20,099 bases of DNA, from IMG/VR virus record IMGVR_UViG_3300042991_000579, positions 1-20,099 of that record; one strand, given 5' to 3'. Shown here one piece after another: positions 16,743-20,099 of the stretch. This DNA comes from a virus. Under the pieces are notes generated by a model, which saw only the letters and a list, made by a program, of their open reading frames with translations, was not told where the DNA came from and did not search any database. The position numbers and the translations under genes are program-made. Position 1 is the stretch's first letter. Every line of letters starts with the position of its first letter.

Positions 16743-18404
16743 CTAAGGCTGTCTTAATCCAAATTCTTTCTTCATGTCAACTTCCTCATCTTCATAAATT
16801 ACCGCTTCAGTTGTCAATATAGTTTTTGTTATCGATACCGAATAATTCAATGCAGTTACCGCTACCATATAAGGATCTATAACTCCATTACTTATTAAAT
16901 CACATGTAGTTATTTTTTTTAAATCAATACCAATAAAATGATATTTATCACCTTCCCCCAACGAAATAAAATAATCTTTTTTGTAATCATCAAAATTTAA
17001 TCCCGCATTTTTAAATAATTTATTTGGCTGCTCTATTAAAGAACCTATTACCGTATCATAACCAAATAAATAGTTTTTATTCGTAGTTTCTGATTTTTTA
17101 AATGCTTCTGATATAGATGCTTGATAATATACAAATCCAGCTCCCGGAAGATAACCATGCGTAATTGTATTTTTAACAGCTTTTAACGCATCTTCTAATC
17201 GGTATTTTTTCTCCGTTAATTCTACTTCTGAATAAGCTCCTAATTTTATTAACGCTATTCCACTTGAAAATTTACCAAACCTCTCATTATACATAGTTTT
17301 GTAATAATTGTCCGTTTCATTTTCTTCCATTATTTTAAGCTCTTTACGCCTATCATCTATTGCCTTTTGACTCCCATGTCCACCAAGTACTAAAAAGTTT
17401 CTTAAACTCGCCTCTACCTTGTCTGCCCTACCTAATATCTCTATACCCATTTTCTCTATCTCCATATTCTTCTCGGGTATTACAGCAATACCACCTGTGG
17501 CAATAGCCAAATCTTCTAAATTCTCTTTTTGATTTATTCCAAAACCCGGAGAGATTACTAAAATAATGGGTATTTTATGTAAATAATTGTCTAATGCTAC
17601 TTTTATAAATTCATCCGAATATTCATTAGCAACTATTACTAACGTTTTCGGCTTATTATTATTACTAAATAATGGATTTAATATATTGCTTATTTGCATA
17701 AAACGCTCAAACTTCCCACCATAAAATAATAAATTTACATCACTCTCCTCAAATTTCATATTTGAACTATCATTATAAAAATAAGGACTTGCTAATCCAC
17801 TAACATAATGCATCCCATCCTTTCTCTCTACTACCGTTTTATGTGTGCCTGATTCTACTATTTTAAATATCCCATTTTTCCCTACTAAATTTAACCCATC
17901 CATTACCGCATTCGTTATTTCTTCATCCCCATTACTCGATATTAACGATATGTTCCTTATCATTAACTTCCCTTCTTCTCTATCAAAATCTATTTCCTGC
18001 CTTAACGTCTCTAAAAAGTCTATTAATTCCGTTTTCGCATCCTCCATACCTCGCATATAATCATAAATTGACGTTACTTCGTCCATATACTTAAATCCTC
18101 GCTTTACCATTTCTGACGCTAATAATAATGAGGTCGTGGTTCCATCCCCTACCTCTACATCACTGCCATGACTTACTTTCTTTAATAACTGTACTGCCAT
18201 ATTCTCTACCGGATCCTTAAAGTAAATACTCCTCGCTACCGTTACTCCATCCTTAGTTACCTGAATGCCATCCATCCCCCCCGTATCTATCATAACATTT
18301 CTTCCACCAGGACCCAAGGTCGATGAAACCGTGTCCGATAATAAAGTTATAGCCTTTATTAATTTTGTTTTCGCCTCTACTCCTCTGTTTATACTACTTC
18401 CCAT
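16743..18404 (-). CDS. groEL: Phage-encoded GroEL-type (group I) chaperonin
   Basis: This 553-residue protein is near full length for GroEL (E. coli 548). ATP-site motifs are intact: TLGPGGRNV at 29-37, TKDGVTVA at 50-57 with Asp52, GDGTTT at 86-91 with Asp87, and RLEDALKAVKN near 402-412, where Asp405 matches the catalytic Asp398 of E. coli. GAG at 421-423 replaces the usual GGG. The apical domain is recognisable (GMHYVSGLASPYF at 197-209, SPGFG at 285-289, LATGG-like IATGG at 301-305). The apical and intermediate domains are diverged, and the C-terminus ends EFGLRQP without the GGM repeats. It should form an ATP-driven ring that folds phage proteins. It follows a small gene by 7 nt, mirroring groES-groEL order. 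Confidence 0.95.
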   Translation of the reverse strand: MGSSINRGVEAKTKLIKAITLLSDTVSSTLGPGGRNVMIDTGGMDGIQVTKDGVTVARSIYFKDPVENMAVQLLKKVSHGSDVEVGDGTTTSLLLASEMVKRGFKYMDEVTSIYDYMRGMEDAKTELIDFLETLRQEIDFDREEGKLMIRNISLISSNGDEEITNAVMDGLNLVGKNGIFKIVESGTHKTVVERKDGMHYVSGLASPYFYNDSSNMKFEESDVNLLFYGGKFERFMQISNILNPLFSNNNKPKTLVIVANEYSDEFIKVALDNYLHKIPIILVISPGFGINQKENLEDLAIATGGIAVIPEKNMEIEKMGIEILGRADKVEASLRNFLVLGGHGSQKAIDDRRKELKIMEENETDNYYKTMYNERFGKFSSGIALIKLGAYSEVELTEKKYRLEDALKAVKNTITHGYLPGAGFVYYQASISEAFKKSETTNKNYLFGYDTVIGSLIEQPNKLFKNAGLNFDDYKKDYFISLGEGDKYHFIGIDLKKITTCDLISNGVIDPYMVAVTALNYSVSITKTILTTEAVIYEDEEVDMKKEFGLRQP

Positions 18405-18857: not shown

Positions 18858-19061
18858 TTACCTATTTTTATTTAACATCCAACAATAAATAAATAATACC
18901 GAATAGCTCAAACTATACCATAACATCATCATAACACCCGACAATTTTTTAATATAATACATTAATGCTTGGGGGGGACTATACTCGTAATTCCCCCCTG
19001 CCCTCTTTCCATTTTCGGGTACCCCAGTGGTATTTTTTGCCACTGAAAAAGAGAGTTCCAT
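18858..19061 (-). CDS. Possible small membrane protein (doubtful)
   Basis: A 67-codon frame whose C-terminal part (about residues 41-62, GVMMMLWYSLSYSVLFIYCW) is hydrophobic enough for one membrane helix. Its N-terminal half is read through the hairpins at 18971-19092, including a G/C homopolymer pair, which argues against a coding role there. I see no promoter box upstream. It may be chance. Confidence 0.25.
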   Translation of the reverse strand: MELSFSVAKNTTGVPENGKRAGGNYEYSPPQALMYYIKKLSGVMMMLWYSLSYSVLFIYCWMLNKNR

Positions 19062-19092
19062 TTCATTGTGGTATTATGCCACAGAAATGGAA
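18971..19092. other. Cluster of three hairpins in the divergent intergenic region
   Basis: Three hairpins fill the space between the minus-strand operon and the plus-strand genes. (a) GGGGGGGA (18971-18978) with TTCCCCCC (18991-18998). (b) CAGTGG (19025-19030) with CCACTG (19040-19045), preceded by the palindrome GGGTACCC (19017-19024). (c) TTCCATTTC (19056-19064) with GAAATGGAA (19084-19092), enclosing TGTGG (19067-19071) with CCACA (19079-19083). The loop regions of (b) and (c) are related: GTGGTATT then T/A-rich then GCCAC. No U-tract follows them. Possible roles are an insulator, a regulatory leader or a replication site. Confidence 0.6.
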
Positions 19093-19098
19093 TTAATG

Positions 19099-19147
19099 AT
19101 TAGTAGTGTTGCGATAGCATTACTAATTATTTGAATAACACTATCGC
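19099..19147 (+). ncRNA. H-type pseudoknot leader, copy 1
   Basis: Stem 1: ATTAGTAGTG (19099-19108) with CATTACTAAT (19118-19127), ten pairs with one G-U. Loop 1 is two nt. Stem 2: GCGATAG (19111-19117, in the hairpin loop) with CTATCGC (19141-19147), seven pairs. Loop 3 is 13 nt. These lengths suit a classical H-type pseudoknot. The element lies 42 nt before the ATG of the first plus-strand gene. Copy 2 at 19935-19983 keeps the geometry with a compensatory change. Confidence 0.75.
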
Positions 19148-19163
19148 ATAACTTTTTAAATAC

Positions 19164-19179
19164 GCAGGTTACACCCTGC
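19164..19179 (+). promoter_or_regulatory. Start-proximal hairpin, copy 1
   Basis: GCAGG (19164-19168) pairs with CCTGC (19175-19179), loop TTACAC. The stem ends 10 nt before the ATG at 19190, where a ribosome would bind. After the stem comes ATTCTTTATT. Same element before all three plus-strand genes. It is probably a translational control or mRNA 5' element. Confidence 0.7.
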
Positions 19180-19189
19180 ATTCTTTATT

Positions 19190-19429
19190 ATGACACTCAA
19201 CTTCTGTTACAAAAACAAAGAAAGTGTCCTTTTATCAATCGATGAATATAAAATCATGTTGGTTGGTAATGGGCTAAAATTGTTTATTGAAAAGGAAAAA
19301 GAGATGGATACAAGAGATGCAAACTCTGATGCTTGGGGAAATAAACCAAGCACTTTGAGTGTATTCTTTGAGGCGAGAAAACAACTAAAATTCAAAGAAG
19401 TACGTAAGAACTTCTTTGTAAATAGATAA
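19190..19429 (+). CDS. Hypothetical small protein, first gene of the plus-strand RNA-structured array
   Basis: This 79-residue protein starts at the ATG 10 nt after the start-proximal hairpin and ends with TAA inside the 5' strand of hammerhead helix II. The N-terminal half (ESVLLSIDEYKIMLVGNGLK) is hydrophobic and beta-like; the middle has EKEMDTRDANSDAWGNKP; the C-terminus is basic (ARKQLKFKEVRKNFFVNR). I recognise no family. The antisense frame in the same place is a shadow, because the RNA elements on both sides fix the plus-strand reading. Function unknown. Confidence 0.7.
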   Translation: MTLNFCYKNKESVLLSIDEYKIMLVGNGLKLFIEKEKEMDTRDANSDAWGNKPSTLSVFFEARKQLKFKEVRKNFFVNR

Positions 19430-19505
19430 TAGCCGAAATGCCACTTTAAAAGGTGGCATCTACATAGGATAACCTCTATGTACTGATGATGGCAGGTACT
19501 ATCTA
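19423..19505 (+). ncRNA. Hammerhead ribozyme, helix-II-open form, copy 1
   Basis: All core elements are present. GCC (19432-19434), then GAAA (19435-19438). Helix III: ATGCCAC (19438-19444) with GTGGCAT (19453-19459). C17 is at 19460, with cleavage predicted between 19460 and 19461. Helix I: TACATAG (19461-19467) with CTATGTA (19476-19482). Then CTGATGA (19483-19489), one extra T (19490), and GGC (19491-19493) closing helix II with GCC. Outer helix II is TAGATA (19423-19428) with TATCTA (19500-19505). Loop I ACC (19472-19474) can pair with GGT (19495-19497) in the helix II internal loop. The stop codon of the upstream gene (19427-19429) is in helix II. Confidence 0.88.
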
Positions 19506-19514
19506 ATTAAACAC

Positions 19515-19530
19515 GCAGGGTACAACCTGC
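19515..19530 (+). promoter_or_regulatory. Start-proximal hairpin, copy 2
   Basis: GCAGG (19515-19519) pairs with CCTGC (19526-19530), loop GTACAA. It ends 9 nt before the ATG at 19540 and begins 9 nt after the hammerhead. No pseudoknot precedes this copy; the ribozyme takes that place. Confidence 0.7.
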
Positions 19531-19539
19531 ATTCTTTTT

Positions 19540-19815
19540 ATGGAAACTGGATCTGTTGTTAAATACAACAATAAGCCATACTTATTTCTTGGCTTAAACA
19601 AAAGTAATAAGTCAAGATTGTTAACAGTTGACTTATTAAAATACTCGGGAACACCAAATCCCGAGAAGTTAGAATTCTTATATATGACAGCTATACGAAA
19701 GTATAATGGTCATATATATTCGAAAACTAAACATGGTGTAATCAGTCTAACGACTGGTGACGTCATGAGTGCAAAGTTTGTTGAGGATATCAATAGACTT
19801 GGTGAAATGATATAG
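19540..19815 (+). CDS. Hypothetical small protein between two hammerhead ribozymes
   Basis: This 91-residue protein starts METGSVVKYNNKPYLFLGLN. That pattern (short strands with G-S-V-V-K-Y and Y-L-F-L-G) looks like a small SH3-like beta barrel, but this is only an impression. Residues 30-60 are strand- and turn-rich; the C-terminus has GVISLTTGDVMSAKFVEDIN. It ends with TAG, the last base of which starts the GCC of hammerhead helix II. It is wholly contained in the 378-nt RNA that the two ribozymes would release. No family recognised; function unknown. Confidence 0.7.
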   Translation: METGSVVKYNNKPYLFLGLNKSNKSRLLTVDLLKYSGTPNPEKLEFLYMTAIRKYNGHIYSKTKHGVISLTTGDVMSAKFVEDINRLGEMI

Positions 19816-19881
19816 CCGAAACGCCTTTACAAGGCGTCTATGTAGATTTATCACTACATACTGATGATGGCAGATACTATC
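19809..19881 (+). ncRNA. Hammerhead ribozyme, helix-II-open form, copy 2
   Basis: GCC (19815-19817), then GAAA (19818-19821). Helix III: ACGCCTT (19821-19827) with AAGGCGT (19831-19837), loop TAC. C17 at 19838 gives a GUC cleavage triplet, with the cut between 19838 and 19839. Helix I: TATGTAG (19839-19845) with CTACATA (19854-19860). Then CTGATGA (19861-19867), extra T (19868), GGC (19869-19871). Outer helix II: GATA (19809-19812) with TATC (19878-19881). The loop contact is ATC (19850-19852) with GAT (19873-19875), homologous to copy 1 with one swapped pair. Helices I and III differ in sequence from copy 1 but keep pairing. Confidence 0.9.
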
Positions 19882-19934
19882 TAACAAACACTATTGGGAA
19901 CAGGATATAAAAACAACACTGAACACAACACATA

Positions 19935-19983
19935 ATTAGTAGTGAAACGATAGCATTACTAATTATCTGAATAACACTATCGT
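19935..19983 (+). ncRNA. H-type pseudoknot leader, copy 2
   Basis: Stem 1: ATTAGTAGTG (19935-19944) with CATTACTAAT (19954-19963). Stem 2: ACGATAG (19947-19953) with CTATCGT (19977-19983). Lengths are identical to copy 1 (49 nt), and the outer pair of stem 2 changes from G-C to A-U, keeping pairing. It lies 44 nt before the ATG of the third plus-strand gene. The 50 nt between hammerhead copy 2 and this element show no clear promoter. Confidence 0.75.
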
Positions 19984-20000
19984 AATAATTTCTTAAGTAC

Positions 20001-20019
20001 GTAGGACTGTACACCCTAC
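20001..20019 (+). promoter_or_regulatory. Start-proximal hairpin, copy 3
   Basis: GTAGG (20001-20005) pairs with CCTAC (20015-20019), loop of nine. Relative to copies 1 and 2 the second pair has changed from C-G to T-A, a compensatory change. It ends 8 nt before the ATG at 20028. Confidence 0.7.
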
Positions 20020-20027
20020 ATTTTTTC

Positions 20028-20099
20028 ATGAAAACAATAGACGCGAAACTAACAGAAATAGACCAAACAGATGAAATTTGTTTGGCTGCTGTTAAACAA
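20028..20099 (+). CDS. Hypothetical protein, truncated by the right window edge
   Basis: An ATG 8 nt after the third start-proximal hairpin opens a frame of 24 codons (MKTIDAKLTEIDQTDEICLA...) to the edge. It has the same leader arrangement (pseudoknot plus hairpin) as the first plus-strand gene, which supports the start. Too little is visible for a functional call. Confidence 0.65.
   Translation, partial: MKTIDAKLTEIDQTDEICLAAVKQ

Follow-up and report, generated by a model that had tools for sequence, protein, structure and literature searches.

A tandem pair of type II hammerhead motifs, predicted to self-cleave, at the ends of small genes in a crAss-like phage fragment

Phage identity and layout of the locus

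The window, i.e. the whole 20,099-nt stretch of viral DNA that was analysed (IMG/VR record IMGVR_UViG_3300042991_000579), encodes tail-like proteins, a major head protein, a portal, a large terminase and a Cpn60-like chaperonin on its minus strand, and the two putative ribozymes sit beyond these genes on the plus strand. The window is part of the genome of a distant crAss-like phage, and its large terminase (TerL) is 24% identical to Crassvirales. A DNA similarity search against annotated phages gave no match, and the same held for a tblastn search with the MCP. In the collections searched no orthologous locus for the two hammerheads was found; the sole near relative (L003, 97%) has a sequence that ends before the ribozyme region. 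Among the minus-strand genes, the GroEL/Cpn60-like chaperonin gene (16743-18404; PF00118, 167 bits; phrog_5725) lies beside the capsid genes, and a tail-like protein (165-1901) carries many GLISGYxAGxNNxGxxI repeats, for which PHROGs gave no match.

On the plus strand a pseudoknot-like element, a leader hairpin, ORF 1, a hammerhead, a leader hairpin and ORF 2 follow each other, succeeded by a hammerhead, a pseudoknot-like element, a leader hairpin and the truncated ORF 3:

19096-19160, plus strand: repeated 65-nt element, H-type-pseudoknot-like, first copy (the two copies are 83% identical)
19164-19180, plus strand: leader hairpin, 5 bp, GCAGG/CCUGC
19190-19429, plus strand: small ORF 1, 79 aa, with a UAA stop ending 2 nt upstream of stem II in hammerhead copy 1
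19430-19503, plus strand: type II hammerhead copy 1 with 3' tail (RF02276 match, MFE three-stem fold)
19515-19530, plus strand: leader hairpin, 5 bp, GCAGG/CCUGC
19540-19815, plus strand: small ORF 2, 91 aa, with a UAG stop that shares its G with stem II of hammerhead copy 2
19813-19881, plus strand: type II hammerhead copy 2 with 3' tail (RF02276 match, MFE three-stem fold)
19932-19996, plus strand: repeated 65-nt element, second copy
20001-20019, plus strand: leader hairpin, 5 bp, GUAGG/CCUAC
20028-20099, plus strand: third small ORF, start only, cut at the contig end, its ATG following a leader hairpin of the same kind

The original prediction had placed the ribozymes at the 3' ends of adjacent small genes. 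Their position flush with both stop codons bears this out, while coding support is weak for ORF 1 and moderate for ORF 2. ORF 1 has neither a Pfam nor a PHROGs match, no relatives were found for it, and its single weak NCBIfam match lies far under the cut-off; family and relative searches with ORF 2 likewise returned nothing. Codon scores of both are low, with a weak z of 0.9 for ORF 1 and a z of 2.4 for ORF 2, which scores best in its own frame and below the other genes of the phage. ORF 3 reached z 1.6 over 24 codons.

The leader hairpins lie about 10 nt upstream of the ATG of each small ORF, at the usual Shine-Dalgarno position, and the third differs from the other two by a compensatory change. 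Terminator prediction on the plus strand called these same hairpins preceding the ATGs; they are more likely leaders than terminators. The 65-nt element consists of a 10-bp stem whose loop (GCGAUAG or ACGAUAG) pairs with a downstream CUAUCGC or CUAUCGU; both the stem and the loop pairing are preserved in the two copies, with one compensatory pair. Rfam gave no match for it, and the viral contigs contain no exact relative. The repeated RNA cassette of the original prediction is thus real, as the genes are flanked by repeated leader hairpins and by a repeated pseudoknot-like element.

Two type II hammerheads

The elements assigned within the two copies are as follows:

19432-19434/19491-19493 (copy 1) and 19815-19817/19869-19871 (copy 2), plus strand: stem II (open), GCC/GGC
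19435-19438 (copy 1) and 19818-19821 (copy 2), plus strand: G12 A13 A14 and A15.1
19438-19459 (19438-19446/19451-19459), plus strand: stem III hairpin of copy 1, AUGCCAC/GUGGCAU
19821-19827/19831-19837, plus strand: stem III hairpin of copy 2, ACGCCUU/AAGGCGU
19460/19461, plus strand: predicted cleavage site of copy 1, after C17 = 19460 (U16.1-C17 after stem III, alignment to the hammerhead consensus)
19838/19839, plus strand: predicted cleavage site of copy 2, after C17 = 19838 (alignment to the hammerhead consensus)
19461-19482 (19461-19467/19476-19482), plus strand: stem I hairpin of copy 1, UACAUAG/CUAUGUA
19839-19845/19854-19860, plus strand: stem I hairpin of copy 2, UAUGUAG/CUACAUA
19483-19489 (copy 1) and 19861-19867 (copy 2), plus strand: CUGAUGA
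19490 (copy 1) and 19868 (copy 2), plus strand: extra U between A9 and stem II
19471-19498, plus strand: loop I/3'-tail pseudoknot of copy 1, ACCU 19472-19475/AGGU 19494-19497
19849-19876, plus strand: loop I/3'-tail pseudoknot of copy 2, UAUC 19849-19852/GAUA 19873-19876

Both copies exceeded the gathering score of 37 bits of the Rfam Hammerhead_II model (RF02276), copy 1 with 40.2 bits (E 2.1e-6, 19431-19501) and copy 2 with 38.0 bits (E 7.6e-6, 19814-19879), so that the covariance-model check proposed along with the original prediction came out positive. The same two matches were obtained again in an independent search of the viral record, in which 14 control genomes gave none. An Rfam scan of the whole window under default filters listed neither hammerhead and a scan with a permissive E-value gave both, which we take to be due to the speed filters. 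A permissive descriptor (at least 4 bp in stems I and III, at least 2 bp in stem II, 0-2 extra nt) matched twice in the window, compared to 0.01 matches per window-sized Markov sequence, both strands included. The unconstrained MFE fold was the hammerhead three-way junction for copy 1 (z -2.57) as well as for copy 2 (z -2.98), and in MFE and centroid folds alike, both copies have loop-closed stems I and III and an open stem II. Stem II is short (3 bp) and stem I is A/T-rich in both hammerheads.

Base-by-base pairing revealed an intact core in both copies, namely C3 U4 G5 A6 N7 G8 A9, G12 A13 A14, A15.1-U16.1 and H17. CUGAUGA, GAAA, helix III, the C at the cleavage site, the hairpin helix I and the open helix II were all found where they had been claimed, and the predicted cleavage positions 19460/19461 and 19838/19839 agree with the alignment to the hammerhead consensus. 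The element list holds as far as every named element is present; it left the extra U before stem II unmentioned. The original prediction that helices I and III differ between the copies and yet remain paired throughout is confirmed by five compensatory double changes, three in stem III and two in stem I, with no pair broken in either stem; stem II and the core are invariant.

A loop I/3'-tail pseudoknot, absent from the original prediction, comprises 4 bp in identical register in each copy, with one compensatory change from C-G to U-A. A pseudoknot of this kind has a published precedent in type II hammerheads (Perreault et al. 2011, PMC3088659). Cognate pairing of loop I and tail over at least 4 bp occurred in 77% of the viral hammerheads among the matches listed, compared to 35% with swapped tails. 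The G-C pair N10.1-N11.1 of stem II is present in both copies, but one U separates it from A9. For 68 hammerheads among the matches listed the search pattern had left the core free; 26 of these 68 have one extra nucleotide after A9, which is a U in 24 of the 26. The extra U is a frequent variant of phage type II hammerheads and therefore not a sign of decay. In the CChMVd (+) viroid hammerhead, which likewise has an extra core nucleotide, this nucleotide reportedly adjoins A9; that ribozyme differs in its viroid origin, in being type III and in the nucleotide itself. The extra core nucleotide of CChMVd (+) is described by De la Pena & Flores (2001). By sequence, structure and covariation, the two elements are genuine type II hammerheads, with self-cleavage as a prediction.

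Type II hammerheads in other viral contigs

For comparison, viral contigs were picked by sequence pattern, which yielded at least 120 stretches from one scan, a sample that may contain related phages; parsing all fetched loci gave at least 180 distinct type II hammerhead candidates, 172 of them with enough flank. Among the matches listed, 78% of these 172 start within -8 to +15 nt of a same-strand stop codon (controls: 15% on the opposite strand, 15% at random positions), 84% have a downstream ATG within 60 nt (16% opposite strand, 31% random) and 75% have both (8% opposite strand, 12% random), with ORFs of at least 40 codons used for the stop-codon and ATG counts. Also among the matches listed, hammerheads are confined to one strand in 101 of 102 loci, two of them lie within 2 kb on 35 locus-strands of these 102 loci (about a third), consecutive hammerheads enclose exactly one ORF in 50 of 76 pairs, and the genes in the corresponding slot mostly have Shine-Dalgarno-like sites (131/180). 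Single records hold up to nine RF02276 matches in 6.1 kb (G036), eight in 7 kb and seven in 4.2 kb, again among the matches listed. Five phage contigs (L041, L101, L073, L127, L037) contain dense arrays of type II hammerheads, mostly at gene boundaries. The exact pattern of the two copies had no match in the viral contigs.

Clustered type II hammerheads that flank single phage or prophage genes were already reported in 2011, together with the proposal that they process transcripts into single-gene mRNAs (Perreault et al., PMC3088659). Tandem phage and prophage hammerheads cleaved in vitro, and a trio from Agrobacterium cleaved in E. coli (PMC3088659). A tandem pair at successive gene ends, which the original prediction had called unusual, is typical for phage type II hammerheads according to both the viral sample and PMC3088659, and the locus represents new hammerheads in an already known arrangement. 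With the type II hammerheads of RF02276 (PMC3088659) the pair shares the permutation, the core, the C at the cleavage site, the loop I/tail pseudoknot, the short stem II and the phage context; it differs in the additional U that separates stem II from A9, the 3-bp stem II, the A/T-rich stem I and the low bit scores. The prophage clusters (PMC3088659 Fig. 3; Agrobacterium tumefaciens ardA trio) likewise place several hammerheads of one strand around single small genes, whereas the present pair lies in a crAss-like phage fragment and has leader hairpins before the ATGs instead of Shine-Dalgarno sites.

No RF02276 match was found in the whole records of 32 TerL-relative loci (terminases 38-50% identical) or in five annotated records with related terminases (four Crassvirales, one unclassified Caudoviricetes). 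As no type II hammerhead was detected in these relatives, the presence of such ribozymes in this crAss-like lineage looks sporadic, and the locus adds a lineage in which these two sets of records gave no other example.

Predicted intercistronic self-cleavage

The two hammerheads very probably are intercistronic self-cleavage sites that would split a polycistronic plus-strand phage transcript into single-gene mRNAs. Each ribozyme begins at the stop codon of the preceding gene, and its core (GAA...UC...CUGAUGA) would fold after transcription of its 3' strand, with the loop I/tail pseudoknot holding stems I and II together. The chain would then be cut after C17 (19460, 19838). This permutation closes stem I as well as stem III into a hairpin, so each new end would carry one: the upstream mRNA would end in hairpin III and the downstream mRNA start with hairpin I, so that at the first site gene 1 RNA would receive stem III (19438-19459) as its 3' end and gene 2 RNA stem I (19461-19482) as its 5' end. 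The two predicted cleavage sites are separated by 378 nt (19461-19838) with one ORF inside, and gene 2 would be released as a single-gene RNA of this length. The hairpins may protect the new RNA ends, and a ribosome on either stop codon would cover the 5' strand of stem II and the GAA core, by which upstream translation could delay cleavage. Hairpins on either side of the cut and the anchoring at stop codons are consistent with intercistronic processing and protected ends. Points against this reading are the low bit scores, barely past the gathering score, the shortness of the 4-bp pseudoknot, the extra U as a departure from the consensus core spacing, the negative search for an orthologous locus in the collections covered and the weak coding status of gene 1.

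A 2017 review (PMC6155905) notes that prokaryotic hammerheads flank ORFs of small, non-conserved proteins and that their role is an open question. The stop-codon-anchored, ATG-followed placement makes one answer testable, namely that phages use hammerheads as protein-free, gene-separating cutters on long transcripts.

RNA structure of the cassette and alternative readings

RNA structure in the window peaks at 19020-20000, with z of -7 to -9 at its strongest compared to -1.1 (sd 1.8) on average over the whole window. Within it, the region before ORF 1 (19020-19190) folds at z -8.9, the predicted 378-nt released RNA at z -8.5, and the coding RNA of ORF 2 (19540-19815, plus strand), a string of stem-loops, at z -7.8. 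That hammerhead-flanked genes are generally over-structured was rejected (mean z -0.68 compared to -0.76 for controls, p 0.88); the strongly structured plus-strand cassette, including the ORF 2 coding RNA, is a local oddity in comparison with other hammerhead-flanked genes. The cassette may have a role as a structured RNA.

This structure would suit a locus that is chiefly a structured non-coding RNA processed by two hammerheads, in which ORFs 1 and 2, with no relatives and low codon scores, are incidental. We regard this as unlikely, considering that each ORF spans exactly the distance from leader hairpin to ribozyme, that the codon score of ORF 2 peaks in its own frame and that in other phages genes fill the same slot, most with the Shine-Dalgarno-like sites counted above among the matches listed. 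It is similarly doubtful that the pair frees a compact RNA of 378 nt, extremely structured and under selection for this structure, either as a self-excised mini-mRNA or as a circle, with stem-loops throughout the coding sequence and with each cassette unit controlled by the repeated leader hairpins and pseudoknot elements. Another reading is that the excised gene 2 RNA (378 nt) is joined at its ends, by reversal of the ribozyme or by a host RtcB-type ligase, to give a stable circle comparable to those of retrozymes and viroid-like elements. RtcB joins 5'-OH and 2',3'-cyclic-phosphate ends, and the ends expected here would suit such joining; a single ORF bracketed by two predicted cleavage sites on the same strand and the exceptional folding of the excised RNA and of ORF 2 alone also favour it. 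Perreault et al. (PMC3088659), however, searched for circles or spliced RNAs generated by phage hammerheads and detected neither, other phages have long arrays instead of pairs among the matches listed, and other hammerhead-flanked genes lack unusual structure, which makes circularization very improbable. Retrozymes and viroid-like circular RNAs share with the locus a unit RNA bracketed by two same-sense hammerheads; theirs are of type III or I and occur in repeats or circular replicons, whereas the present locus has no signs of repeat spread.

Alternatively, the hairpins could be ordinary structural elements of gene ends that have lost cleavage, serving to stabilise the mRNA or representing degenerate ribozymes. 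Scores barely over the cut-off, the extra U at stem II and the short pseudoknot would fit such decay, but the core is intact in two copies with compensated stem divergence, the pseudoknot covaries and the extra U is common in phage type II hammerheads, so that we consider the loss of cleavage quite unlikely. An assignment of the ribozymes as intrinsic terminators was rejected, as neither is followed by a T-run.

Upstream of the cassette, 19020-19095 on the plus strand contains two strong hairpins, CAGUGGUA.../...GCCACUG and the longer UUCCAUUUC...GAAAUGGAA.
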